Below, one piece after another: positions 8,874 through 33,460 of a stretch of 33,501 nt of DNA. The translations under genes and the position numbers were made by a program. Source of the DNA: Bacillota bacterium (GTDB lineage Bacteria > Bacillota > DTU030); contig JAAYSG010000038.1 of the NCBI GenBank assembly GCA_012518435.1, forward strand, positions 1-33,501, in the 5' to 3' direction. Below the pieces are notes generated by a model. That model was not told where the DNA came from and searched no databases. It saw only the letters and a program-made list of their open reading frames with translations. Position 1 is the stretch's first letter. Each line of letters opens with the position of its first letter.

Positions 8874-9986
8874 ATGTTGCCCCACAAGGTTATGCATTTA
8901 CTATGTCATGCCCATGGGGGAATGTGCCGCCACGTTTTTGACCTTGCCCAAGGGCTAAACCCTGGGGAATTTTCTCCCCTCATTGTGGCATCGCGGCGAA
9001 ACACCTGGCTTAAGAAATCTTCTAAAGGGCCTGTTCCCCTTATCCCCCTGGATGTTTGTCATTGGGAAAAGCCCTTTTTACCCACGGGGGACTTGGGAAA
9101 ACTGATTAGTTTACTGCGACTACAAAGGGTGGTGATTCTCCATGTGCACGGGTTTCGGGCGGCATTATGGGGGAGGCTGGCCGCCCGGGTGGCTGGCACA
9201 CCGGTTGTAATTTATACTGTACATGGTTTTCCAGCGAAGGGACCTGCCATCTTTGGTATTGAAAGATTGTTGGCTAATTGGACCAGCCGCATTATTACAG
9301 TGTCCCATGCCTTGCGGCGGGAACTTATCCGGGGGGGTATTCCCCCCTATAGAATAACAACAATTCATAATGGTGTAGATGTGGCTGGGAAAATAGGGGG
9401 CAACATTAAAGATAACAGGGGATGGGGTTATAATGTTGGTATCGTTGGTCGTTTGGTAAAATTAAAGGGTGTTGAATATTTCCTGCGGGCAGCAGCCGCC
9501 GTTGCCGTCGTTGAACCCCGGGCCAGGTTCTATGTCATCGGTGATGGCCCCCGGCGCAGCTATTTGGAGGGGCTTGTTGGGGATTTATCCTTGGATGGTG
9601 TGCTATATTTTACTGGGCATGTGGACAATATGGATAAGTGGTGGCAACACCTTGATATTCTTGTATCCTGTTCTTTAGAGGAAGGTCTGGGACTAAGTAT
9701 TTTGGAGGCAATGGCTGCTTCCCTACCAGTTATCGGGACCAGAGTGGGGGGGATACCGGAAATTATTATCCCTGGTTTAAATGGCATTTTGGTGGAGCCG
9801 CGGGATAGTCGTACTTTATCTAGTGAAATTTTAAAACTTCTCCATAATCCAGGCTGGAGAACTAGGCTGGGTGGCAAGGGTAGGGAAATGGTCTTGCGTA
9901 GATTCACTCGGGACAAAATGGTTGCGGCGGTGGAAAAAATCTATCATCAATCTTTGGAAATTACTTTGGGTAAGGCAAATGAATAG
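8874..9986 (+). CDS. GT4-family glycosyltransferase
   Basis: This is a 370-residue retaining glycosyltransferase of the GT-B fold. The N-terminal Rossmann-like half contains the acceptor loop HAHGGMCRHVFDLAQGL and ILHVHGFRAALWGRLAARV. The C-terminal nucleotide-sugar half starts VGIVGRLVKLKGVEYFLRA. It ends with the E-x7-E motif EEGLGLSILEAM, then GTRVGGIPEII. No membrane segment is evident, so it would act at the cytoplasmic face on an envelope glycolipid or polysaccharide; the substrate cannot be read. ATG 8874 is chosen because GGAGGG lies just upstream, although the spacing is short; ATG 8892 is an alternative. Its stop overlaps the start of the next gene (ATGAATAG), indicating coupled translation and a shared pathway. 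Confidence 0.88.
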   Translation: MLPHKVMHLLCHAHGGMCRHVFDLAQGLNPGEFSPLIVASRRNTWLKKSSKGPVPLIPLDVCHWEKPFLPTGDLGKLISLLRLQRVVILHVHGFRAALWGRLAARVAGTPVVIYTVHGFPAKGPAIFGIERLLANWTSRIITVSHALRRELIRGGIPPYRITTIHNGVDVAGKIGGNIKDNRGWGYNVGIVGRLVKLKGVEYFLRAAAAVAVVEPRARFYVIGDGPRRSYLEGLVGDLSLDGVLYFTGHVDNMDKWWQHLDILVSCSLEEGLGLSILEAMAASLPVIGTRVGGIPEIIIPGLNGILVEPRDSRTLSSEILKLLHNPGWRTRLGGKGREMVLRRFTRDKMVAAVEKIYHQSLEITLGKANE

Positions 9987-12165
9987 GGGTCCATTACTTA
10001 TTTTCTTAATAATAATCCTTTTATTCCTCTCCGTTGGCCTTCATCCGGCACTGGTTAAGGCCGCAGATGGGGGCAAAAGGGTGATAGTCCTTGTCCTTGA
10101 TTCAATTAACATGGCAGATTTACGCCATGCCAAAACACCCAATATTGCTAGGCTCATTGCTGTGGGTGCCACCGGTCTTCTGAATACAGCCACCCATTCG
10201 GGTTCTGCTTGTAATGCCGCCCACATAAGCATAGGGGCCGGAGCCCGGGCCAGTGGTGGTGATGGTCTGGAACCGGCATTGGAAATTGGGGAGGAGTGGG
10301 AGGGGGTTGCGGCGGGAAAGGTATACCAACGCCGGATGGGGATGACGCCCCAGGCTAGTATTGTGCATTTGGGTATGGCTGAAATGGTTACTGCCAATGC
10401 TAAACTTGGGGCAACAGTCCGCCCCGGTGCCTTGGGTCAGGCCCTCAGTGATGCTGGCCACACGTGTTGTTTATTGGGCAATAGTGATATTCCCGGTAAG
10501 ATTCGGCGGCCAGGGGCGGGCATAGTAATTGATTACCTGGGTGTTGTGAAGGAAGGTTCTATAGGGTTGGAACTCCAACGAAAAAACCCTCTGGCACCCT
10601 ATGGGCTAGAAACAAATGAGAGGGCCCTGCTCCATGCCTTTAGAAAAACTGCGGATAGCTCCGTGGTTGTTATAGAGTGGGGTGATACCCTTCGTGCTGC
10701 TGGTTACAGCGGGTTTTTGCTACCGGAAATGGCCGTTGCTGCTCGGCGGCACGCCATAGAAAGGGCGGATGCCTTTTTGGGGGAATTATTACAATATGTG
10801 GATCTGGAGGAAACCCTTCTTATATTGATCTCCCCCACACCTTCGCTCGGCGCATACCGGTTGGGGGACAGGTTGACACCAATTATTATGGCTGGTATGA
10901 ATACTACCCCGGGTCTTTTATCTTCTGCCACAACCCGGAGGGCTGGTCTAGTGGCCAACATAGATCTTGCCCCCACCATTTTAGATGTCTTTCAGCTTTC
11001 GGCACCCCCCACCATGCAGGGTAGGCCAATGCGGGTTACTAGAGGGGACAATGGACTTGAGTCCCTGGCTGCCAAGGGAGAACTCTTTCAACGAAATTTT
11101 CTTTTTCGCCCCCTTGTAATCAAAACCTATATTGTGTTTATTGTTGTCGTTCTTGCTGCTAGCGCCGCAGCCATTTACCGGCCGGGCTGGTGGAATTCCC
11201 CCCTATCACACTTCCTGGTTGCGGTTGCCGCCCTTCCTCTGGTATTGTTGATGCTACCCCTTCTCTCCCTCAAAAGGTTGGGTACTAGCCTGGTGGCAAT
11301 TTCAATTGTTACAATTGTGGCGGTAAAATTAGTATTCCAGGGGCAAAAGGATCCCCAACCCTTTATTATTCTTGCTTTGCTAACCGTTGGGGCCTTATGG
11401 TTGGATTTGCTTACGGGTCAGTCCCTCCTACTCACATCCCTTTTGGGCTACTGCCCCATTAGTGGTGCCCGCTACTATGGAATGGGCAATGAATACATGG
11501 GGCTTTATCTGGGGGCGGGATTAATTGGTTGGAGTGGTTTGGCAGAGGGGATTAAGCGCGCTGGAAAAAGGCTATCCCCCCCCTTTCTTATCATACCGGG
11601 CTTTCTCTTGCTGCTCATATTTGTAGCTTGGCCCCACCTGGGGGCCAATTTTGGCGGGGCCATTGCCACCATGTGGGGGGGTGGTGCCACCATTATTTAC
11701 CTGCGGAAGGGCTCGTTATATAAGGGGAAATTCTTACTTTGGGGTCTATTGGGTGTACTCCTTTTGACTAGCCTAAGCCTTGGGGATTACATTTTGGCCG
11801 GTGATGGGGCTTCACATCTGGGTCGAACCGTTGCTTTAACTGTTGGAGCTGGAGTCCGGGAGCTGTCCTTGCTCATTGGGCGCAAACTGGGAATGAATTT
11901 AAAGCTGCTAAAATACTCTTGGTGGAGTTTGATCCTCCTGGCAGTTTTAATCCTTTTTATGATGTTATCCCATCGGCCTCCCCGCACTTTAAGGGATCTG
12001 GCCCTCAGCTTTCCCATCCTTTGGGCAGGCCTTGTCGGCAGTGGGGTGGGTGCCTTCGTTGCTTTCTTAGTAAATGATTCCGGCGTTGTTGCGGGGGCCA
12101 CGGCCCTGATCTTTCCCGTCACTACACTATTGTTTTTATTGGTGCAGGCGGCCGGTGATTCCTAG
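9979..12165 (+). CDS. Polytopic membrane protein with alkaline-phosphatase-like outer domain
   Basis: This is a 728-residue protein. An N-terminal signal/anchor helix spans residues 5-28. An extracytoplasmic domain of about 350 residues has the landmarks of the sulfatase/alkaline-phosphatase superfamily: VIVLVLDSI with D41, KTPNIARLIAVGA at about 52-64, and the terminal block NIDLAPTILDVF before MQGRP at 345-350. About ten hydrophobic segments follow (380-728), with conserved-looking GARYYGMGNEYMG, GANFGGAIATMWGG and VNDSGVVAGATAL. Where active members have an Asp-His metal pair after the last strand, this protein reads LILISPTPSLG, so the metal site seems incomplete. The start ATG 9979 overlaps the glycosyltransferase stop, with GGGTAAGG upstream. 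Placement suggests a role in processing or exporting a cell-envelope glycan or glycolipid. The function is unknown and the domain call is by motif. Confidence 0.72.
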   Translation: MNRGPLLIFLIIILLFLSVGLHPALVKAADGGKRVIVLVLDSINMADLRHAKTPNIARLIAVGATGLLNTATHSGSACNAAHISIGAGARASGGDGLEPALEIGEEWEGVAAGKVYQRRMGMTPQASIVHLGMAEMVTANAKLGATVRPGALGQALSDAGHTCCLLGNSDIPGKIRRPGAGIVIDYLGVVKEGSIGLELQRKNPLAPYGLETNERALLHAFRKTADSSVVVIEWGDTLRAAGYSGFLLPEMAVAARRHAIERADAFLGELLQYVDLEETLLILISPTPSLGAYRLGDRLTPIIMAGMNTTPGLLSSATTRRAGLVANIDLAPTILDVFQLSAPPTMQGRPMRVTRGDNGLESLAAKGELFQRNFLFRPLVIKTYIVFIVVVLAASAAAIYRPGWWNSPLSHFLVAVAALPLVLLMLPLLSLKRLGTSLVAISIVTIVAVKLVFQGQKDPQPFIILALLTVGALWLDLLTGQSLLLTSLLGYCPISGARYYGMGNEYMGLYLGAGLIGWSGLAEGIKRAGKRLSPPFLIIPGFLLLLIFVAWPHLGANFGGAIATMWGGGATIIYLRKGSLYKGKFLLWGLLGVLLLTSLSLGDYILAGDGASHLGRTVALTVGAGVRELSLLIGRKLGMNLKLLKYSWWSLILLAVLILFMMLSHRPPRTLRDLALSFPILWAGLVGSGVGAFVAFLVNDSGVVAGATALIFPVTTLLFLLVQAAGDS

Positions 12166-12290
12166 GGACTGTGTGGTATTATTGGCCCCTTTTCCTAGAC
12201 CTTGGCGTTGGCTTGGTTTGTCGGGGGGCAACTGCTGGATAGTAGTATTCCATCCTTGGGGAGGAAATGTCAGGGGATGGGAAGAATTTA

Positions 12291-12347
12291 GTATGGGAAT
12301 CTGGAGCAGGCTCAGGCTTTGGTATGGGAGGCTGGAGCAGGTTAAGG
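12291..12347 (+). repeat. Imperfect tandem direct repeat, 26 bp
   Basis: Two 26-base copies begin GTATGGGA and share CTGGAGCAGG (12291-12316 and 12322-12347), with a period of 31 bases. They lie in the 229-base spacer before the first M42 gene. No gene, terminator or riboswitch is recognised in that spacer. Confidence 0.6.
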
Positions 12348-12394
12348 ATACTGTTTGCTTAATGAGGGCCAAATACATATGGGGAGGTAAAAAA

Positions 12395-13462
12395 ATGGAT
12401 AAGAGCAAGGAGTTATTGGAGGAATTGACTGGTGCGGCGGGGGTATCGGGGTTTGAAGGTGAAGTAAGAGAAATAATGCGGCGATACCTGGCCCCCCTGG
12501 CCAGCATTAGACAGGATCGGCTGGGCTGTATTATTGCCGAAAAGGCCGGCGCTGGAGAGGGACCTAGGGTTATGCTTACTGCCCACATGGATGAAATAGG
12601 TTTTATGGTAAAGACAGTTACTGAGGATGGTTTTCTGCGTTTTACCCCCTTGGGTGGTTGGCCCGAGCAGGTTCTTTTGGCCCAAAGGGTAACTATAAAG
12701 GGCAGGCGGGGTGATGTACCCGGCGTCATCGGTTCCAAACCGCCCCATCTTATGGATAGGGAAGAGCGGAAAAAAATGGTGCAAATTAAGGATATGTTCA
12801 TTGATGTTGGGGCCAAGGACAAGGAGGAGGTTGAGTCCCTGGGGATCAGACCCGGGGATCCCATTGTTCCGGTGGGAAACATGGAATCAATGAAGAACGG
12901 AAAATACCTTATGGCCAAGGCCATTGACGATCGAGTCGGCTGTGGCCTCCTCATAGAGGTGTGTGAGGAATTAAGTGGCCTTGGTCATCCCAATACCCTC
13001 TATGCGGTGGGTACTGTCCAGGAAGAAGTTGGAACCAGGGGGGCGGCAACCAGTGTGGCGGCAATTGATCCCCATGTTGCTTTAATTCTGGATGTTAGTA
13101 TTGCCACCGATGTACCTGGTCTAAAGGGGGAGGTTGAGGGGAAATTGGGCCAGGGGCCCACCATTGGCTTGTTTGATTCTTCCATGATTCCAAATGTTAA
13201 TTTGCGGGATCTATGCATTGAGACGGCGGAAGAGTTGGCTATTCCCTATCAGTATTCCATCATGGAGGGTGGTGGCACCGATGGGGGAAGAATTCACCTC
13301 CATGGTACCGGGGTACCCAGCCTAGTTATTGGTGTACCGGTCCGCTACATTCATAGTCACGTGGGTATTATGCACCTTGATGATTACCTTTGGGCCCGCC
13401 AGCTTATTGTGGGCTTAATTAGGAAACTGGATACAGAGGCTTGTAAGGCCTTGATTGGATAG
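12395..13462 (+). CDS. M42-family metallo-aminopeptidase (copy 1)
   Basis: This is a 355-residue cytoplasmic di-metal peptidase of the M42 family (YsdC/FrvX/TET type), which forms dodecameric shells that trim peptides from the N-terminus. All expected residues are present. These are the metal ligand and activator H64 and D66 in AHMDEIG, bridging D178 in AIDDR, catalytic/ligand E210-E211 in VQEEVG, D233 in LILDVS and H320 in RYIHS. The PDZ-like insert carries GVIGSKPPHL. GTDGG near residue 296 is also typical. The ATG 12395 has GGGGAGG seven bases upstream; the frame is open further upstream but without family similarity. It is separated from three sister genes by a DUF5317-like gene and ddl. 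Substrate preference cannot be read. Confidence 0.93.
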   Translation: MDKSKELLEELTGAAGVSGFEGEVREIMRRYLAPLASIRQDRLGCIIAEKAGAGEGPRVMLTAHMDEIGFMVKTVTEDGFLRFTPLGGWPEQVLLAQRVTIKGRRGDVPGVIGSKPPHLMDREERKKMVQIKDMFIDVGAKDKEEVESLGIRPGDPIVPVGNMESMKNGKYLMAKAIDDRVGCGLLIEVCEELSGLGHPNTLYAVGTVQEEVGTRGAATSVAAIDPHVALILDVSIATDVPGLKGEVEGKLGQGPTIGLFDSSMIPNVNLRDLCIETAEELAIPYQYSIMEGGGTDGGRIHLHGTGVPSLVIGVPVRYIHSHVGIMHLDDYLWARQLIVGLIRKLDTEACKALIG

Positions 13463-15471: not shown

Positions 15472-15510
15472 GACCTTTTATATTATTGGGCTGGTGGGAG
15501 GATGGCCGTA

Positions 15511-16569
15511 ATGGTGGATCTGGATCTATTACGCCGCCTTTCCGAGGGAGCGGGAGTTTCCGGTTCGGAGGGGGAGGTGGCGAAGCTGTTAGTAGAGGTA
15601 CTAAGGCCCTATGCCGATAGTGTCGATAGGGATCGGTTGGGTAATGTGATTGCTTTTAAGGAGGGAGAGGGCCCCACCCCCCGCCCCCGGGTGTTGTTAT
15701 CTGCCCATATGGACGAAATTGGTCTTTTGGTTACCGGCTGGGAGGATGGGGGGTTTTTGCGCTTTAGCACCGTGGGGGGTGTAGACATACGGACCCTATT
15801 GGGGCAGGAAGTCATTGTCCATGGGACACGCATTCTGCCGGGGGTAATCGGGGCCAAACCGCCCCATCTGCAGTCACCTGCTGAAAGAAAGGAAGCCATA
15901 GACGGGGAGAAAATGTATATTGATACTGGTCTTAAGGCTAGGGATGAATTGGAGCGGTTGGTTCCCATTGGTTCCGTTGTGACCATAGCCAGAAAGTTGC
16001 AGGTGCTTGCCCAAGGGCGTGTGGCAGGGAAGGCACTGGATAACAGGGCGGGGGTTATGGTGCTGGTGGGGTGCCTTAAGGAATTAATGGCGGTTAAGCA
16101 TAAGGCTGATGTATATGCAGTGGCAACGGTGCAGGAGGAAGTGGGTATAAGGGGTGCCATCACAAGTTCCCATGGCATTAATCCCGATTTGGGTATTGCA
16201 ATAGATGTCTGTCATGGCGATATGTTGGGTATGGCGGAGGATGAAGGATATCCCCTGGACAAAGGTCCGGCCATTGGTTTTGGCCCCCATGTACACCATC
16301 AGCTCTATAGGGCTCTTAGGGATAGCGCAGAAAGGGTGGGCATCACCTATCAGGTGGAACCTTCCCCGACACCGGCGGGAACCGATGCCTGGGGAATTCA
16401 GATTGCCCGCCGGGGAATTCCAACTGCCCTTATTTCGATTCCCCTCCGCTATATGCATACTTCGGTGGAAACATTGTCCATGCGGGATGTGGCCGAAACC
16501 ATTCGTCTTCTCTTGGCCTTCATCCAGGGCTTGGAATCCGCCTTCGTGGAGGGATTATCGTGCTACTAG
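15511..16569 (+). CDS. M42-family metallo-aminopeptidase (copy 2)
   Basis: This 352-residue M42 peptidase has a complete metal centre: H66 and D68 (AHMDEIG), D177 (ALDNR), E209-E210 (VQEEVG), D232 (IAIDVC) and H316 (RYMHT). GVIGAKPPHL marks the PDZ-like insert. It differs from copy 1 in having a longer CHGDMLGMAEDEGYPLDKGP loop after the fourth ligand and PTPAGTDAWG where the others have a GGGTDGG-type motif, suggesting a different S1 pocket. Two in-frame ATGs exist. The one at 15502 directly abuts GGGAGG, so 15511, nine bases after it, is preferred. The gene ends inside the start region of copy 3 (ten-base overlap), so the two are translationally coupled. Confidence 0.92.
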   Translation: MVDLDLLRRLSEGAGVSGSEGEVAKLLVEVLRPYADSVDRDRLGNVIAFKEGEGPTPRPRVLLSAHMDEIGLLVTGWEDGGFLRFSTVGGVDIRTLLGQEVIVHGTRILPGVIGAKPPHLQSPAERKEAIDGEKMYIDTGLKARDELERLVPIGSVVTIARKLQVLAQGRVAGKALDNRAGVMVLVGCLKELMAVKHKADVYAVATVQEEVGIRGAITSSHGINPDLGIAIDVCHGDMLGMAEDEGYPLDKGPAIGFGPHVHHQLYRALRDSAERVGITYQVEPSPTPAGTDAWGIQIARRGIPTALISIPLRYMHTSVETLSMRDVAETIRLLLAFIQGLESAFVEGLSCY

Positions 16570-17591
16570 AGAGATTATCAACAGCCTTTGGTCCACCGGG
16601 GCAAGAGGATGAGGTGCGGGAAATATTAAGGCAAGAAATAACCCCCCATGTGGACAAAATATGGACCGACGCCCTGGGGAATTTGCTGGCGGAAAAAAGG
16701 GGTTCGGTCCAAGGGGCACCCCGGGTTCTTTTGGCCGCCCACATGGATGAGGTGGCTCTTATGGTAACCCATATTGACAAGAATGGTTACCTACGCTTTA
16801 GGACCATGGGTGGGATAGATCAACGGGTATTGGTTTCCAAGTTGGTTCTGGTGGGCCCCCAAAAAGTACCGGGGGTCATAGGTTCGAAGGCCATACACTT
16901 ATTGACTCCAGAGGAAAGGGAAAAGGCCTTCCATCTCCGGGACCTTTATATAGATATTGGCGCCGGGACCAGGGAAGAGGCGGAGGCCCTGGTGTCAATT
17001 GGTGATGGCGTGGTATTTAATTCTTCTTTTTGCCATCTGGGGGATGGTCGGGTTCGGGGTAAGGCCTTGGATGACCGGGTTGGCTGTTCCGCCCTGGTGG
17101 AGATTTTACAAAGGCGGTATCCAGTAACCCTTGTTGCCGCCTTTACGGTGCAGGAGGAAGTGGGTCTCCGGGGTGGCCGGGTGGTGGCCTTTGGGGAGGA
17201 GATTGATTTGGCCCTTGTTTTGGAGGCAACAACTGCCTTTGATGTGCCGGATTCCAAACCCCACGAAACGGTGACCTGCCTTGGACAGGGTCCAGCTCTG
17301 ACAATCATGGATAGTACCCTAATTGCCGATCCTAATTTATTAACTATTCTAAGGGAAACAGCGCTGGAACAGGGGATTCCCTACCAACTGCGCAGGACCG
17401 GTGGTGGGGGGACGGATGGAGGGGCCATTCACCTTACTGAAGGTGGGGTGCCCACCGCTGTCTTGGCTGTACCATGCCGTTATTTGCATTCTCCGGCTTC
17501 AGTGATAGAATTGAATGACTACAGACATTTGGTGGACCTGACAGATGCCTTCCTAGCGAAATTTATGGAAAGGAGGACCAAATTAGGGTGA
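16560..17591 (+). CDS. M42-family metallo-aminopeptidase (copy 3)
   Basis: This is a 343-residue paralogue. Ligands are H61 and D63 (AHMDEVA, where the sisters have DEIG), D171 (ALDDR), E199-E200 (VQEEVG) and H310 (RYLHS). At the fourth position it has E222 (LVLEAT) instead of the aspartate of the other three copies; glutamate can serve as a ligand there, so activity is still likely. The start is GTG 16560, six bases after GGAGGG. It overlaps the stop of copy 2, and its own TGA shares bases with the GTG of copy 4. Loss of the usual glycine after DEI and the Asp-to-Glu change mark it as the most diverged copy at the metal site. Confidence 0.92.
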   Translation: MLLERLSTAFGPPGQEDEVREILRQEITPHVDKIWTDALGNLLAEKRGSVQGAPRVLLAAHMDEVALMVTHIDKNGYLRFRTMGGIDQRVLVSKLVLVGPQKVPGVIGSKAIHLLTPEEREKAFHLRDLYIDIGAGTREEAEALVSIGDGVVFNSSFCHLGDGRVRGKALDDRVGCSALVEILQRRYPVTLVAAFTVQEEVGLRGGRVVAFGEEIDLALVLEATTAFDVPDSKPHETVTCLGQGPALTIMDSTLIADPNLLTILRETALEQGIPYQLRRTGGGGTDGGAIHLTEGGVPTAVLAVPCRYLHSPASVIELNDYRHLVDLTDAFLAKFMERRTKLG

Positions 17592-18586
17592 AAAATATAC
17601 TGCAGCGGCTCATACAGGCCTTCGGCCCCTCGGGGAGGGAAGAGGAGATCCGTTCAGTTTTGCGGGAGGAGCTGGCCGGCTCAGGTCTGGAGCTTAAAAC
17701 CGATGTCCTGGGAAATTTAATTGCCACAAAGGCTGGCCGGGGTGGCCGCCTTATGATCGCCGCCCATATGGATGAGATCGGCCTTTTGGTAACCCATATT
17801 GATGACAAGGGTTTCCTCCGTTTTACCCCCATTGGTGGCCAAGACCCCAAAAACCTCCTGGGCTCCCGAGTGATTTTTGCCAATGGTATTATGGGCACGA
17901 TCGGGGGGGAAAAAATAAAGGATGCCAAGGAGTTTAAATTAGAAAAACTCTATATTGATATCGGTGCTACTGCTGCAGCAGAGGCTAAGGAATTAGTTGC
18001 AATTGGTTCTATGGCAGTATTTGTTCCCCATTTTACCTGTCAGGGAAACCGTATCATTGGCAAGTCCCTGGATAATAGGGCAGGTTGTGCACTATTACTG
18101 GCGGTCATCAGGGATTTACCCCCTGTAGATTATCAGATTGATTTTGTTTTTTCAGTCCAGGAGGAGGTTGGTCTCCGGGGTGCTAGGACGGCGGCCTATC
18201 ACCTTGAACCTCATCTGGCCTTGGCCGTGGATGTAACCCGGACGGGTGATACTCCTGAATCTGGGCCCATGGCCGTGGAATTGGGCGGGGGGCCGGCCAT
18301 CAAGGTCAAGGACACCTCCCTTATTAGTCATCCCCGTGTTAGGGGATTGTTGGAAAAGGCTGCCAAGGAGAGGGATATTCCCTTTCAATTGGAGGTTCTT
18401 CTCCGGGGAGGTACCGATGCCGGATCCATCCACCTCAGCCGGGCGGGGGTCCCCAGTGGTGTTATTTCCATTCCTACACGCTATGTGCATAGCCCGGCGG
18501 AAATGATAGATTATCGGGATTTAACAAGGGCCGCTACCCTTCTAAGCGCTTTTATGCAACAAGACCAATTGTTTATGGCTCCATAG
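17588..18586 (+). CDS. M42-family metallo-aminopeptidase (copy 4)
   Basis: This is the shortest copy at 332 residues, with intact ligands H60 and D62 (AHMDEIG), D162 (SLDNR), E192-E193 (VQEEVG), D215 (LAVDVT) and H301 (RYVHS). The PDZ-like insert is reduced: the GVIGSKPPHL...ER segment of the sisters is replaced by IMGTIGGEKIKDAKEFKL, which accounts for the lower length. In TET peptidases this insert helps dimerisation and channel formation, so the oligomer or hetero-oligomer could differ. Start GTG 17588 overlaps the TGA of copy 3 (GTGA), with AAGGAGG 11 bases upstream. It is the last gene of the M42 run; 135 bases separate it from the EF-G-like gene. Confidence 0.92.
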   Translation: MKNILQRLIQAFGPSGREEEIRSVLREELAGSGLELKTDVLGNLIATKAGRGGRLMIAAHMDEIGLLVTHIDDKGFLRFTPIGGQDPKNLLGSRVIFANGIMGTIGGEKIKDAKEFKLEKLYIDIGATAAAEAKELVAIGSMAVFVPHFTCQGNRIIGKSLDNRAGCALLLAVIRDLPPVDYQIDFVFSVQEEVGLRGARTAAYHLEPHLALAVDVTRTGDTPESGPMAVELGGGPAIKVKDTSLISHPRVRGLLEKAAKERDIPFQLEVLLRGGTDAGSIHLSRAGVPSGVISIPTRYVHSPAEMIDYRDLTRAATLLSAFMQQDQLFMAP

Positions 18587-18721
18587 GCTATGGCTAACTA
18601 TTTTTGTGGCAGTCCCCATTTTCCTCATTGCTTTTTCTCCAAAGAAAGGAAGGACACTGTCCGGAGGCGAATATCAATCCTGGGGGATGCCAAAAATGAA
18701 ATAGAACAAGGGGGAGATTTT

Positions 18722-20809
18722 ATGAAGGAGTATGGGATCAAGCAATTGCGGAATGTGGGCCTGATATCCCACGGTGGTGCTGGAAAAACCACATTAACAG
18801 AGGCCCTGCTTTTTAACTCTGGTGCCACAGAACGCCTGGGTCGCGTGGATGATGGCTCTTCGGTAATTGATTATGATCCAGATGAAATAAAAAGGAAAAT
18901 TACCATTAATGCTAGCCTGGCCCCATGCCAGTGGCAGGGCAATAAAATTAATATCATCGACACACCGGGATATGCGGATTTTGTTGGTGATGTCAAAGGT
19001 TCGCTACGGGTGGTGGATGGGGCGATCGTGGTTGTTTGTGCTGTATCTGGTGTTGAGGTGCAGACGGAAAAGGTATGGCATTATGCGGATAAATATAATC
19101 TGCCCCGCCTTGTCTTTGTAAATAAATTAGACAGGGAGAATGCAAATTTTGCCAAGGCCCTGGGCCAGGTGCAGGAACAGTTATCGGCAAAAGCCGTTGC
19201 TTTGCATATCCCCCTGGGTAGTGAGGATGATTTTCGGGGCCTTATTGATCTGGTGAATATGCAGGCCCTCATTTATACCACTGGGAAGGGCAAGGATTTT
19301 TCAATTGCTGAAATCCCGGCAGAATATAAGGATGAGGCAGAGGAGTACCGGGAGAAGCTAATTGAGGCCATAGCGGAAACCGATGATGAATTGGTTATGA
19401 AGTATTTGGAAGGGGAATCTTTTACCACTGAGGAGATAAAGGCTGGTCTGCGGGCAGGCACCCTGGACCACAGCATTGTTCCTGTCCTCTGTGGCTCTGC
19501 CTTGGCCAACATTGGCATACAACCACTATTGGACACCATTGTGGCCTGTTTGCCTTCCCCCGGGGATGTTGATACAGTTACTGGCCGTGATGTGGGCACG
19601 GAGGATGAAGTGGAAGTTGAATTGAGTAAAGATGGCCCCCTGGCGGCCTTGGTTTTTAAGACCATGGCAGATCCCTTTGTTGGTAAGCTAACTTACTTCC
19701 GGGTTTATTCCGGGGTGTTTAATTCCGATAGCCAGGTTTATAATGTCAGTAAGGAAAGGATGGAGCGGGTGGGACAGTTATTTGTCCCCCGCGGCAAGGA
19801 GCAAGTTGCAGTAAAGCATATATCCGCTGGCGATATAGGGGCGGTGGCCAGGCTCCAGGAAACTGGAACGGGAGACACCCTTGGCCATCGGGATAAGCCG
19901 ATATTGCTAAACCCCATCGAGTTCCCCCAGCCTTCTTACTCAGTAGCCCTATTTGCCAAATCCAAGGGGGATGAGGATAAGCTAAGTACCGGGCTGGGAA
20001 GGCTAATGGAGGAGGACCCGACCCTGCAAACAGCCCAAAATACCGAAACCAGGGAACTCATCCTTTCGGGCATGGGTGATGTCCACCTTGGCGTAACCTT
20101 GGAACGCTTGAAGAGGAAATTTGGTGTAGAGGTGGAAACGAAGGAGCCCAAGATACCATTTAGGGAAACTATCCGCAAGGCCGTAAAGGTTGAGGGGAGG
20201 CATAAGAAGCAAACAGGTGGCCACGGACAATATGGACATGTCTTTATCGAGATGGAACCCTTGGCAGAAGGGGAAGGATTTGTCTTTGAGGAAAGTATTT
20301 TCGGTGGTTCTGTGCCCAGGCAATATATACCCGCGGTGGAAAAGGGTATTAGGGAAGCCATGGAGGAAGGAATTTTAGCTGGGTATCCGGTGGTTGATTT
20401 CAAAGTTAACCTCTATGATGGTTCCTATCACACCGTTGACTCCTCGGAAATGGCCTTTAAAATTGCGGCTATACAGGCTTTCCGCAAGGCCATGGAGGAG
20501 GCCCAACCGGTATTGTTGGAACCCATAATGAATCTGGAAGTACTAGTGCCCGAGGCTTACATGGGAGACGTAATAGGTGATCTAAACTCCAAAAGGGGAA
20601 GGATCTTGGGGATGGAACCTAGGGGTGGAGAACAGTTGGTAAAGGCCCAGGCGCCCCTAACGGAATTGGCTAAATATGCCATTGATTTAAGGTCTCTCAC
20701 CCAGGGTCGGGGAAGTTTCAAGATGTCCTTTGACCATTACGAGGAAGTACCGGCCCGAACCGCCGAGGAGATCATCGCCCAAGCCCAGAAGGAAAAGGAA
20801 GGGGAATAG
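18722..20809 (+). CDS. Elongation factor G-like GTPase (EF-G-2 subfamily)
   Basis: This is a 695-residue, five-domain translational GTPase with the overall length of EF-G. G1 reads SHGGAGKTTL (residues 16-25), G3 reads DTPGY (80-84) and G4 reads NKLD (134-137). Canonical EF-G has DTPGH, with the histidine that activates water for GTP hydrolysis. The tyrosine here is the mark of the EF-G-2-like group (for example Thermus thermophilus EF-G-2). It is therefore probably not the main translocase but a paralogue of less certain role in ribosome function. Domain IV is present (GGHGQYGHVFIEMEP) with C-terminal domain V (GEQLVKAQAPLTELAKYA). ATG 18722 has GGGGGAG upstream; the open extension back to 18590 shows no homology. 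surE follows 25 bases later. Confidence 0.9.
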   Translation: MKEYGIKQLRNVGLISHGGAGKTTLTEALLFNSGATERLGRVDDGSSVIDYDPDEIKRKITINASLAPCQWQGNKINIIDTPGYADFVGDVKGSLRVVDGAIVVVCAVSGVEVQTEKVWHYADKYNLPRLVFVNKLDRENANFAKALGQVQEQLSAKAVALHIPLGSEDDFRGLIDLVNMQALIYTTGKGKDFSIAEIPAEYKDEAEEYREKLIEAIAETDDELVMKYLEGESFTTEEIKAGLRAGTLDHSIVPVLCGSALANIGIQPLLDTIVACLPSPGDVDTVTGRDVGTEDEVEVELSKDGPLAALVFKTMADPFVGKLTYFRVYSGVFNSDSQVYNVSKERMERVGQLFVPRGKEQVAVKHISAGDIGAVARLQETGTGDTLGHRDKPILLNPIEFPQPSYSVALFAKSKGDEDKLSTGLGRLMEEDPTLQTAQNTETRELILSGMGDVHLGVTLERLKRKFGVEVETKEPKIPFRETIRKAVKVEGRHKKQTGGHGQYGHVFIEMEPLAEGEGFVFEESIFGGSVPRQYIPAVEKGIREAMEEGILAGYPVVDFKVNLYDGSYHTVDSSEMAFKIAAIQAFRKAMEEAQPVLLEPIMNLEVLVPEAYMGDVIGDLNSKRGRILGMEPRGGEQLVKAQAPLTELAKYAIDLRSLTQGRGSFKMSFDHYEEVPARTAEEIIAQAQKEKEGE

Positions 20810-31049: not shown

Positions 31050-31077
31050 GGGGGATATCTTCTTTCACCCAGCACTG

Positions 31078-31103
31078 GCACCCTAACCAAAGGGTGCTTT
31101 TTT
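31078..31103 (+). terminator. Terminator of the peptide transporter operon
   Basis: GCACCCT pairs perfectly with AGGGTGC around AACCAA and is followed by six T residues. This marks the end of the ABC operon, so the following fusion gene is a separate unit. From 31104 to 31250 only AT-rich spacer is seen; a weak -10 TATACT lies near 31243. Confidence 0.92.
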
Positions 31104-31262: not shown

Positions 31263-33203
31263 ATGAATACAAGAACATTCGAGGATGTATTTAACGAGAT
31301 GAATAATAGGGTATTTTATCCCCAGCCCATCCCGGATAAAATTAAGGATGGGCTTTTGGAAGCAGCAGTAAAGGCGGCAACCGCCACTGCAATCCAGGCT
31401 TATAGTATCATTGTCGTGGATGAGCCCCAACAACGCAAACGTCTGCACCAGATCTGTGGGTATTCGGCAAATTTAGAATCCCCTTTACTGGTGGTTTTTT
31501 GTGTTGATTTCTACCGGGTAAAAATTGTACAGGAGAATCCTGAATCTGCCTTTGGCCTAAACTGCCCAAATACCTTTCTTCTGGCCCTCTGTGATGCAAT
31601 GGCGGCGGCCCAGGGTATGGCTACGGCCGCCAAGGGCAAAGGTTTGGCAGCATATTATTCCAGCACTATAATAAACAATGTGGAGTGTATTAGAAAGATA
31701 CTGTCACTCCCCGAATGGGTTTTTCCAGTTGCAATGTTACGTTTGGGTTATCAAGTGTTCCCCGGCCACCAGCAAGAACCCTTGCCGGGGCCTGTCTATA
31801 GTAATCGTTATGTGCCCCTGAAGAAGAAACAGATTTCCGCCCAGAAAAAATATTTTCAAGACCTTTTTGGGGATGATTTTTTCCAATTGCGGGAGGATGA
31901 TAGAGCGGCGGCGGAACGTGCAGCGAACCTTTGGCGCCAGCTGACCTACTCTGGTTTTTTCCGTAATATTGGGAAAAGGGACAAGAAAACAATTCCCCCA
32001 GGGGCGAAAATAAGTCTGGGGGAAACCCGGCAAATCATTCAACTATCACACGGGATTAGCCGGAAGCGCAAACAATACACTATTAAGGTTAATTTTCTTT
32101 ATAGCCTGGCCACCTTCCATTTAATTAAGGGTCAGCCGGAAAGGGCTTTAGATGTTTTTTCCCGGGCCATTCTTCTGATACCGCAAGCAGCTGAACTATA
32201 TTGTTGCCAGGGGGCTATCCACCAGAGTTTGGGTAACACTGAGCGTTCCTTACATTATTTCGGCAAGGCCGTAAGCCTGGAAAAAGGGGAACCGCACTTT
32301 TATCTTTGGCTGGGCAGATGTCAGTTGTTTTGGGGCAAGGAAGAATTGGCATTGATGTCATTGAATAAAGCCCTAGAACTAAAGCCAACATTGACCACAG
32401 CCTGGTTGGCCAAGGCAGAAATTCTGGAGAGAAAAAAGGTATGGGAAGGTTCTCTTTACTGTTACCAAAAAACAATTTCCCTGGGCCATCGAGATCATAA
32501 GCTTTATAACAACATGGCGTTGGTCTACCTTCGCTTGGGAAGATTAAGGGAGGCTCAGAAATATTGTGGGAAGGCTCTGGCCCTACGCCCCCGGGACCCC
32601 ATTGTTTTGGCCAATATAGGGCTAATATATTCCAAGATGGGTGAATTTGAAAAGGCTATAGCCCATTATACCAGGGCTTTAAAGATGCAACCCAATAATG
32701 TCAGTCTGCTTAATAATAAGGGATATTGTTTACTAAAAATGGAATGTTACCAAGAGGCGCTGGCAATTTATGAACTAACCCTGGAGCTAAAACCCGGGCT
32801 CCTCAGCGCTTTGGAAAACAAGGCTTCTTGCTTAACTCTTTTGGGGCGAACAGAGGAAGCCCTTTTGTGCTACAATGAAATCCTGCGGCTAAAACCTTCC
32901 GGGGCGACGGCCCTCAATAACAAGGCCCTTTGTTTAGTAAAGATGGGTAAGTATAAACAAGCATTACATTGCTATTTTCAGGCCTTGGAAAAGGACCCTG
33001 ACAACATATCCTTTCTCAGCAATACCGCGGCTTGCCTTATAAAGATGCAACGCTATGGCGAAGCCTTGGCCCATTATGAGCGGGCTCTAAGCTTGTATCC
33101 GGGGGAGCGAGCCCTATTGAGCGGCAAGGGAGTGTGTTTGGATTATCTAGGACGTTTTGATGAAGCCGTTAATTGCTACAATAGTGCCATGGGGCTGGCC
33201 TAG
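31263..33203 (+). CDS. Nitroreductase-like domain fused to a TPR array
   Basis: This 646-residue protein appears to have two modules. Residues 1-170 resemble the flavin-dependent nitroreductase fold: RVFYPQPIPDKIKDGLLEAA, IQAYSIIVVDEP, a middle block DAMAAAQGMATAAKGKGLAAY and the end LSLPEWVFPVAMLRLGYQ, all in family order. A charged linker (about 180-270) leads into roughly eleven TPR repeats of 34 residues (272-646), for example YNNMALVYLRLGRLREAQKY and NNKGYCLLKMECYQEALAIY. There is no signal peptide, so it is cytoplasmic. ATG 31263 follows GGGGGGGAT. The usual Arg-Ser-x-Arg flavin motif at the N-terminus is only partly kept, so cofactor binding is uncertain. The TPR part would bind protein partners; the function is unknown. 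Confidence 0.78.
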   Translation: MNTRTFEDVFNEMNNRVFYPQPIPDKIKDGLLEAAVKAATATAIQAYSIIVVDEPQQRKRLHQICGYSANLESPLLVVFCVDFYRVKIVQENPESAFGLNCPNTFLLALCDAMAAAQGMATAAKGKGLAAYYSSTIINNVECIRKILSLPEWVFPVAMLRLGYQVFPGHQQEPLPGPVYSNRYVPLKKKQISAQKKYFQDLFGDDFFQLREDDRAAAERAANLWRQLTYSGFFRNIGKRDKKTIPPGAKISLGETRQIIQLSHGISRKRKQYTIKVNFLYSLATFHLIKGQPERALDVFSRAILLIPQAAELYCCQGAIHQSLGNTERSLHYFGKAVSLEKGEPHFYLWLGRCQLFWGKEELALMSLNKALELKPTLTTAWLAKAEILERKKVWEGSLYCYQKTISLGHRDHKLYNNMALVYLRLGRLREAQKYCGKALALRPRDPIVLANIGLIYSKMGEFEKAIAHYTRALKMQPNNVSLLNNKGYCLLKMECYQEALAIYELTLELKPGLLSALENKASCLTLLGRTEEALLCYNEILRLKPSGATALNNKALCLVKMGKYKQALHCYFQALEKDPDNISFLSNTAACLIKMQRYGEALAHYERALSLYPGERALLSGKGVCLDYLGRFDEAVNCYNSAMGLA

Positions 33204-33251: not shown

Positions 33252-33292
33252 TAAAAAACAATTTAAGCAGTGGTATTTCTACCACTGCTTAA
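33252..33292 (-). terminator. Terminator of the minus-strand tRNA cluster
   Basis: A perfect 13-bp stem (TTAAGCAGTGGTA / TACCACTGCTTAA) with loop TTTC lies at 33263-33292. Read on the minus strand it is followed by TTGTTTTTT. It ends transcription of the tRNA-Tyr/Gln unit and faces the converging fusion gene. Confidence 0.85.
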
Positions 33293-33295
33293 TGT

Positions 33296-33370
33296 TGGTT
33301 GGGGCGGTAGGGGTCGAACCTACGCATACAGGATCCAAAGTCCCGTGCCTTACCGCTTGGCTACGCCCCA
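33296..33370 (-). tRNA. tRNA-Gln (anticodon TTG)
   Basis: Minus-strand cloverleaf: acceptor TGGGGCG/CGCCCCA, anticodon stem CGGGA/TCCTG with loop CTTTGGA (anticodon TTG), T loop TTCGACC and encoded CCA at 33298-33296. The discriminator is A. Four bases separate it from tRNA-Tyr, so both come from one precursor. Confidence 0.93.
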
Positions 33371-33373
33371 TTA

Positions 33374-33460
33374 TGGTGGAGAGGGCTGGATTTGAACCAG
33401 CGAAGGCTTTGCCAGCAGATTTACAGTCTGCCCCCTTTGGCCAAACTTGGGTACCTCTCC
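33374..33460 (-). tRNA. tRNA-Tyr (anticodon GTA)
   Basis: This is an 87-base class II tRNA on the minus strand with the long variable arm of tRNA-Tyr. Acceptor GGAGAGG pairs with CCTCTCC, the anticodon stem CAGA/TCTG encloses CTGTAAA (anticodon GTA), T loop TTCAAAT, and CCA is encoded. Confidence 0.94.

Follow-up and report, generated by a model that had tools for sequence, protein, structure and literature searches.

Nitroreductases are regarded, almost by definition, as flavoenzymes. Their fold also occurs in other uses, in BluB, the C-terminal domain of FbiB and albonoursin synthase, which are all ligand-binding enzymes; in the records examined none of these is fused to TPRs, unlike the protein described here, and their matches to its N-terminal part are weak. 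FMN binding in the superfamily involves an Arg or His at the phosphate, a second and a third Arg or Lys, a generally conserved Ser and a small residue at N5 (PMC6017928). In NfsA, ligand contacts are made by Arg15, Lys167 and Gln67 (PMC8286842, PMC9912195), and helix E constitutes the main dimer interface (PMC8286842).

Enzyme-type domains joined to TPRs are represented by CheR-TPR and other enzyme-TPR fusions (PMC3447774). Another point of comparison is O-GlcNAc transferase (OGT), in which a long superhelix of 34-residue TPRs (1w3b) bears a groove asparagine ladder that forms bidentate hydrogen bonds to the peptide backbone (PMC8586251).

Here we describe a protein encoded in a 33,501-bp stretch of DNA (hereafter referred to as the window; contig JAAYSG010000038.1, assembly GCA_012518435.1, a Bacillota bacterium of the class DTU030), in which a head of the NfsA/Frp/NfrA subgroup (E. 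coli NfsA, V. harveyi Frp, B. subtilis and B. megaterium NfrA1) is followed by 11 TPRs. It shares the long superhelix and the asparagine ladder with OGT, but is bacterial and has this head instead of a glycosyltransferase domain. In contrast to CheR-TPR, the enzyme-type domain is a different one, apparently inactive, and there is no adjoining chemosensory cluster. The earlier note on this DNA could name no described system with a nitroreductase-TPR architecture, and we likewise found none in the open-access papers searched.

Domain organization of the fused protein

The features of the locus are collected in Table 1. The ATG codon is preceded by a G-rich stretch resembling a ribosome-binding site. 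When residues 1-271 were used alone as a query, residues 16-163 matched the Pfam Nitroreductase family (PF00881, E 2e-10, 41.6 bits versus a cut-off of 23.5). The nearest NCBIfam model was the NfsA-type NF008033 (residues 5-199, E 8e-23), although with 81 bits the window protein falls short of the NfsA equivalog cut-off of 223. Among solved structures, Bacillus NfrA1 and NfsA/Frp are closest in sequence (E 1e-20 to 1e-15). The C-terminal part matched PF00515 with an E of 7e-67 and consists of 11 repeats of exactly 34 residues each, the first beginning at residue 276; this consensus and tandem period place it among TPR superhelix proteins.

Table 1. Features of the fused gene and its surroundings (window coordinates)
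Feature	Position	Strand	Basis or remark
Fused protein with apparent pseudo-nitroreductase head and TPRs	31263..33203	+	646 aa, ATG start, stop 33201-33203; architecture repeated in nine further genomes
NfsA/NfrA-type nitroreductase domain, residues 1-235	31263..31967	+	PF00881, NF008033, PDB NfrA1/NfsA by sequence and fold
Residues 12-16, E-M-N-N-R for H-R-S-I-R (NfsA 11-15, flavin-site motif)	31296..31310	+	last Arg alone kept; alignments
Residues 102-125, equivalent of NfsA helix E	31566..31637	+	invariant A116-Q117 kept
Residues 133-135, S-S-T for I-G-G (NfsA 129-131, flavin N5 loop)	31659..31667	+	alignments
Residues 170-175, Q-Q-E-P-L-P for basic loop L-K-P-R-L-P (NfsA 166-171)	31770..31787	+	alignments
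Linker, residues 236-275	31968..32087	+	one predicted helix at 249-268; least conserved part of the protein
Eleven TPRs, residues 276-646	32088..33200	+	gap-free period of 34
Asparagine ladder, TPR position 6, repeats 5-10 (N417, N451, N485, N519, N553, N587)	32511..33023	+	orthologue alignment
Terminator-like hairpin between oppF and the gene	31077..31098	+	sequence
Bidirectional terminator-like hairpin between the gene and the convergent tRNAs	33263..33292	.	sequence
tRNA-Gln(ttg) and tRNA-Tyr(gta), convergent, first of a tRNA cluster	33296..33460	-	cluster at the same place in orthologous loci

Structure predictions point in the same direction. In AlphaFold2 models of ten orthologues the TPR helices reached pLDDT values of about 84-95, and in the head, predicted with low to moderate confidence, helices and strands followed one another much as in nitroreductases. 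Modelled separately with a deeper alignment, residues 1-235 gave a pLDDT of 81.6 and a pTM of 0.79, and a Foldseek search with this model ranked NfrA1, NfsA and Frp first (E 2e-16, TM about 0.8). The best fold match of the whole model was the OGT superhelix 1w3b (E 2e-17). Taken together, the matches of the head and of the whole protein indicate that the nitroreductase part extends to about residue 235 and that the TPRs are predicted to form one continuous superhelix.

The earlier note had proposed a nitroreductase-like domain at residues 1-170, to be checked by profile and structure, and an uninterrupted array of about eleven TPRs. The array was recovered without a gap, and the domain was recognized by profile, sequence and fold comparison; only its extent was underestimated, since the C-terminal elements of NfsA are present as well. 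By both sequence and structure, the head thus has the complete fold of the NfsA/Frp/NfrA subgroup, the core together with the C-terminal extension, and keeps the VFC-D strand, the A-Q of helix E, the L-P and the terminal G-F. It departs from the subgroup in the attached TPRs and in the loss of the H-R-S-x-R, Gln67, I-G-G and K-P-R motifs.

Distribution and origin

The fusion was found in 10 of the 13 genomes of class DTU030 examined (1.2 to 2.88 Mb), with both families represented; one of the orthologues, from a genome that shares its family with that of the window, is located on LFSN01000021.1 of Clostridia bacterium DTU030. The class, also named Candidatus Usiniota, comprises 15 genomes of 1.22-2.88 Mb obtained from anaerobic digestion (PMC11382960). 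In three draft genomes of the class (G007, G009 and G010) the fused gene was not found. Since nine other genomes carry the same fusion, an assembly joint or a frameshift near the linker, which the earlier note had named as a possible flaw, is ruled out.

Stand-alone NfsA-type enzymes were not encountered in the class, whose other nitroreductase matches are short (ORFs of 168-202 aa), and in the genome of the window PF00881 has no match besides the head. Of 399 genomes sampled from the phylum, 386 lie outside the class; among the matches listed for these there was no fused protein, and the NfsA-type matches came from ORFs of at most 340 aa, the sole longer frame (413 aa) being one in which a GNAT-like region follows a nitroreductase. 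The latter arrangement was observed in L090, from another family of the phylum, the GNAT assignment being made by eye, and was set aside as a different thing. In a plasmid search, no match extended over more than 71% of the query, and the matching entries were either unannotated or labelled NfsA or NADPH-dependent oxidoreductase.

We suggest a common origin of the fused heads because of their shared architecture, TPR similarity and synteny (see below). In the gene tree, which has long branches, they are monophyletic in 12% of bootstrap trees.

The flavin and substrate site of the head

The heads were aligned with 22 stand-alone NfsA-type proteins, i.e. 21 from the phylum and E. coli NfsA (residues 3-191). 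Thirty columns conserved at 80% or more in the stand-alone set were divided into 25 structural and 5 ligand-site columns (Ser13, Arg15, Gln67, Gly130 and Arg169), a selection that is partly our own; S13 and R169 are those that we take to belong to the FMN site. In the five close fused orthologues, the structural columns are kept in 115 of 125 cells (92%) versus 4 of 25 cells (16%) for the ligand-site columns. Ser13 and Arg169 are retained in none of the five, Gln67 and Gly130 in one each, and Arg15 in two. The difference is significant by column (Fisher p 9e-4), with the reservation that the sequences are related, so neither cells nor columns are independent.

Consequently to this selective loss of ligand-site residues beside kept structural ones, the head looks like a pseudo-nitroreductase. 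The H-R-S-x-R, I-G-G and Gln67 elements of the FMN site and its K-P-R loop are largely missing from the fused heads, the window protein retaining only Arg16. In the second family, which accounts for half of the orthologues, the N-terminal helix bearing this Arg is also gone and Pfam detects no nitroreductase domain, yet a profile of these heads still aligns with stand-alone NfsA-type enzymes (hhalign probability 99.4%, E 1e-21). Redox chemistry by the head is unlikely, because the flavin and substrate residues were selectively lost and the domain has moved beyond Pfam recognition in half of the orthologues.

An active flavoenzyme, i.e. an NfsA-like reductase brought by its TPRs to a macromolecular substrate or electron donor, might still be imagined from the full-length NfsA-type domain and from Arg16, Tyr132, Asn138 and Thr42 of the window protein, which lie in or near the NfsA pattern. 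We consider this quite improbable: each of the five ligand-site columns is retained in fewer than four of the five close orthologues, the place of Arg15 is taken by Gln in the g2 genomes, and the basic loop is unrecognisable. Of the two readings offered in the earlier note, the scaffolded or sensing redox protein thus loses ground, and the degenerate flavin fold employed as a binding module is the one that the selective loss favours.

Within the window's genus, Arg16 (equivalent to NfsA Arg15) is kept, together with a Ser/Thr-type residue in the next loop, and weak binding of a flavin or nucleotide is possible there. This Arg, the retained fold, the variable linker and the purifying selection on the head (see below), which implies that the head has some function, would be compatible with a ligand-sensing adaptor, whose non-catalytic head has kept the capacity to bind a flavin, nucleotide or quinone and opens or closes the TPR groove through a change in the dimer or the linker. 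Such a role appears doubtful, as every close orthologue lacks the phosphate-side residues H/R11, S13 and R169, and from the second family the N-terminal helix and Arg are gone as well; therefore, no single ligand site is common to the family.

Selection and conservation of the TPR groove

Both parts of the protein are under purifying selection. For five pairs with finite dS (the window's own pair being near dS saturation), the head has a dN/dS of 0.17-0.27 and TPR5-11 one of 0.03-0.09. Although constrained, the head diverges: its pairwise identity is 21-59%, versus 44-94% for TPR4-11. This much faster divergence, along with the failure of Pfam to recognize half of the heads, could be expected if the head were a decaying relic, drifting without function, and the TPRs alone mattered. 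We find this hard to credit, given that its dN/dS is well below 1, that no stop or frameshift occurs in the fused gene in ten genomes, and that the structural columns are so largely retained.

In TPR5-11, the mean entropy of groove positions is 0.86, versus 1.29 for exposed helix-B positions, and TPR position 20 is invariant. The asparagines of repeats 6-10 (N451-N587) are invariant in the ten orthologues and that of repeat 5 (N417) is found in 8 of 10. A conserved position-6 Asn in consecutive repeats is what an OGT-like ladder displays; it is a weak discriminator, as Asn at position 6 belongs to the general TPR consensus, and taken by itself is no proof of an OGT-like mode. As read from the alignment, it would support peptide binding in general more than the OGT-like mode in particular.

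A second ladder is formed by Cys at TPR position 10 of repeats 7-11 (C489, C523, C557, C591 and C625). It is near-invariant in the ten orthologues, C489 and C591 having one Ser exception each, and may serve packing or thiol chemistry. Between window positions 32727 and 33176 (codons C489 to C638), Cys also recurs at TPR position 23 in several repeats, likewise with near invariance among the orthologues.

The most conserved repeat is the last one (CLDYLGR..EA..CYNRALRLA). In the window's genome, 8 of the 9 PF00515 matches fall within this protein, which may thus be the main TPR hub of the cell. This concentration of nearly all detected canonical TPRs in one protein, the OGT-like superhelix and the broad conservation across the class might suggest a chaperone-like or assembly factor, in which numerous unfolded or nascent segments would be bound by the superhelix through their backbone, and the head would do no more than set the oligomer. 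We regard this as unlikely, since a last repeat so very strongly conserved points to one specific partner, and the gene was not found in the three draft genomes mentioned above.

Genomic context

The earlier note described the gene as standing alone as a transcription unit after a strong terminator, and the terminator-like hairpins on either side of it (Table 1) agree with a single-gene unit; a promoter search upstream of the gene gave no match above chance. A search for conserved neighbours, also proposed in that note, revealed flanking genes shared among the orthologous loci. In 8 of the 10 genomes, a convergent tRNA-Tyr gene is located just downstream, after tRNA-Gln in the first family, and is usually clustered with tRNA-Met and tRNA-Pro; in the remaining two the contig stops, after tRNA-Gln in one and before any tRNA in the other. 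Upstream, genes for EF-G2, SurE and an MTA/SAH-type deaminase are present in both families; between these and the fused gene, the first family has opp genes and the second nth-mgsA. The tRNA cluster and the upstream genes common to both families speak for a chromosomal core gene that was inherited vertically.

No functional partner was inferred from the neighbourhood, because the adjacent genes serve housekeeping or salvage (EF-G2, SurE, MtnA, MTA/SAH-type deaminase) or encode the opp transporter, and the immediate upstream genes differ between the families. The elongation factor G encoded at window positions 18590-20809 belongs to the PRK12740.1-5 subfamily (above cut-off) and forms a conserved cluster with SurE, MtnA and the deaminase. 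The SurE/deaminase interval also holds another TPR protein of about 380 aa (L038:12172-13314, minus strand, with relatives in L039, L040 and L061), which in the second family occupies the place of the first-family MtnA.

Two further assignments were considered and rejected. A defence protein is not indicated, as PADLOC gave partial TPR matches only and no match over the whole protein. A phage protein was dismissed as well: in PHROG the head matches an unnamed family and a nitroreductase, and the locus has the synteny of the chromosomal core.

Several other genes of the window deserve a mention. Four genes for M42-family aminopeptidases lie close together (12155-13462, 15502-16569, 16560-17591 and 17588-18586), and an opp-type transporter follows further downstream, an arrangement that would suit a cell living on peptides. 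An intact-looking SpoIVA gene with three Pfam domains (670-2148) suggests sporulation, or remains of it, in the lineage. A 149-aa ORF at 2352-2801, whose end is overlapped by the next listed ORF, has no Pfam match and matched the phage family phrog_37741 (E 2e-23). The 764-aa ORF at 9871-12165, which adjoins a glycosyltransferase gene, has no Pfam match at 1e-5 and a marginal PHROG match.

Proposed role and significance

Based on our observations, we suggest that the fused protein might be a cytosolic, class-specific adaptor or peptide-binding scaffold with a cofactor-free and probably dimerising nitroreductase head, a proposal to which we would give about an even chance. According to it, the head would be an NfsA-type fold that has lost most of its grip on flavin and NAD(P)H and was retained as a structural piece; the absence of FMN is what we infer from the altered site. 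By analogy with NfsA, the head would most likely serve for homodimerisation, given that it retains both the dimer helix of NfsA and the hydrophobic core; in the alignment, the helix-E residues are conserved in the fused orthologues. The groove of the superhelix, with its asparagine ladder, would then bind a client peptide.

A bolder version is a redox- or nucleotide-responsive adaptor, in which the head binds a small ligand, perhaps not FMN, that gates the groove of the asparagine ladder, and the cysteine ladder adds thiol chemistry. We hold this to be very unlikely; if true, a nitroreductase fold would have been turned into a signalling head.

As judged from the sequences, the nitroreductase-TPR fusion is a new domain combination and likely a pseudo-enzyme, conserved across a small lineage. 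The protein proposed here as a scaffold is widely conserved in DTU030, a poorly studied lineage of anaerobic digesters, and its annotation by a pipeline as a nitroreductase or a generic TPR protein would mislead. A fold kept under selection and inherited vertically after its grip on the cofactor was lost would be a natural pseudo-enzyme of the nitroreductase superfamily, and such a family would show the nitroreductase fold serving as a protein module.
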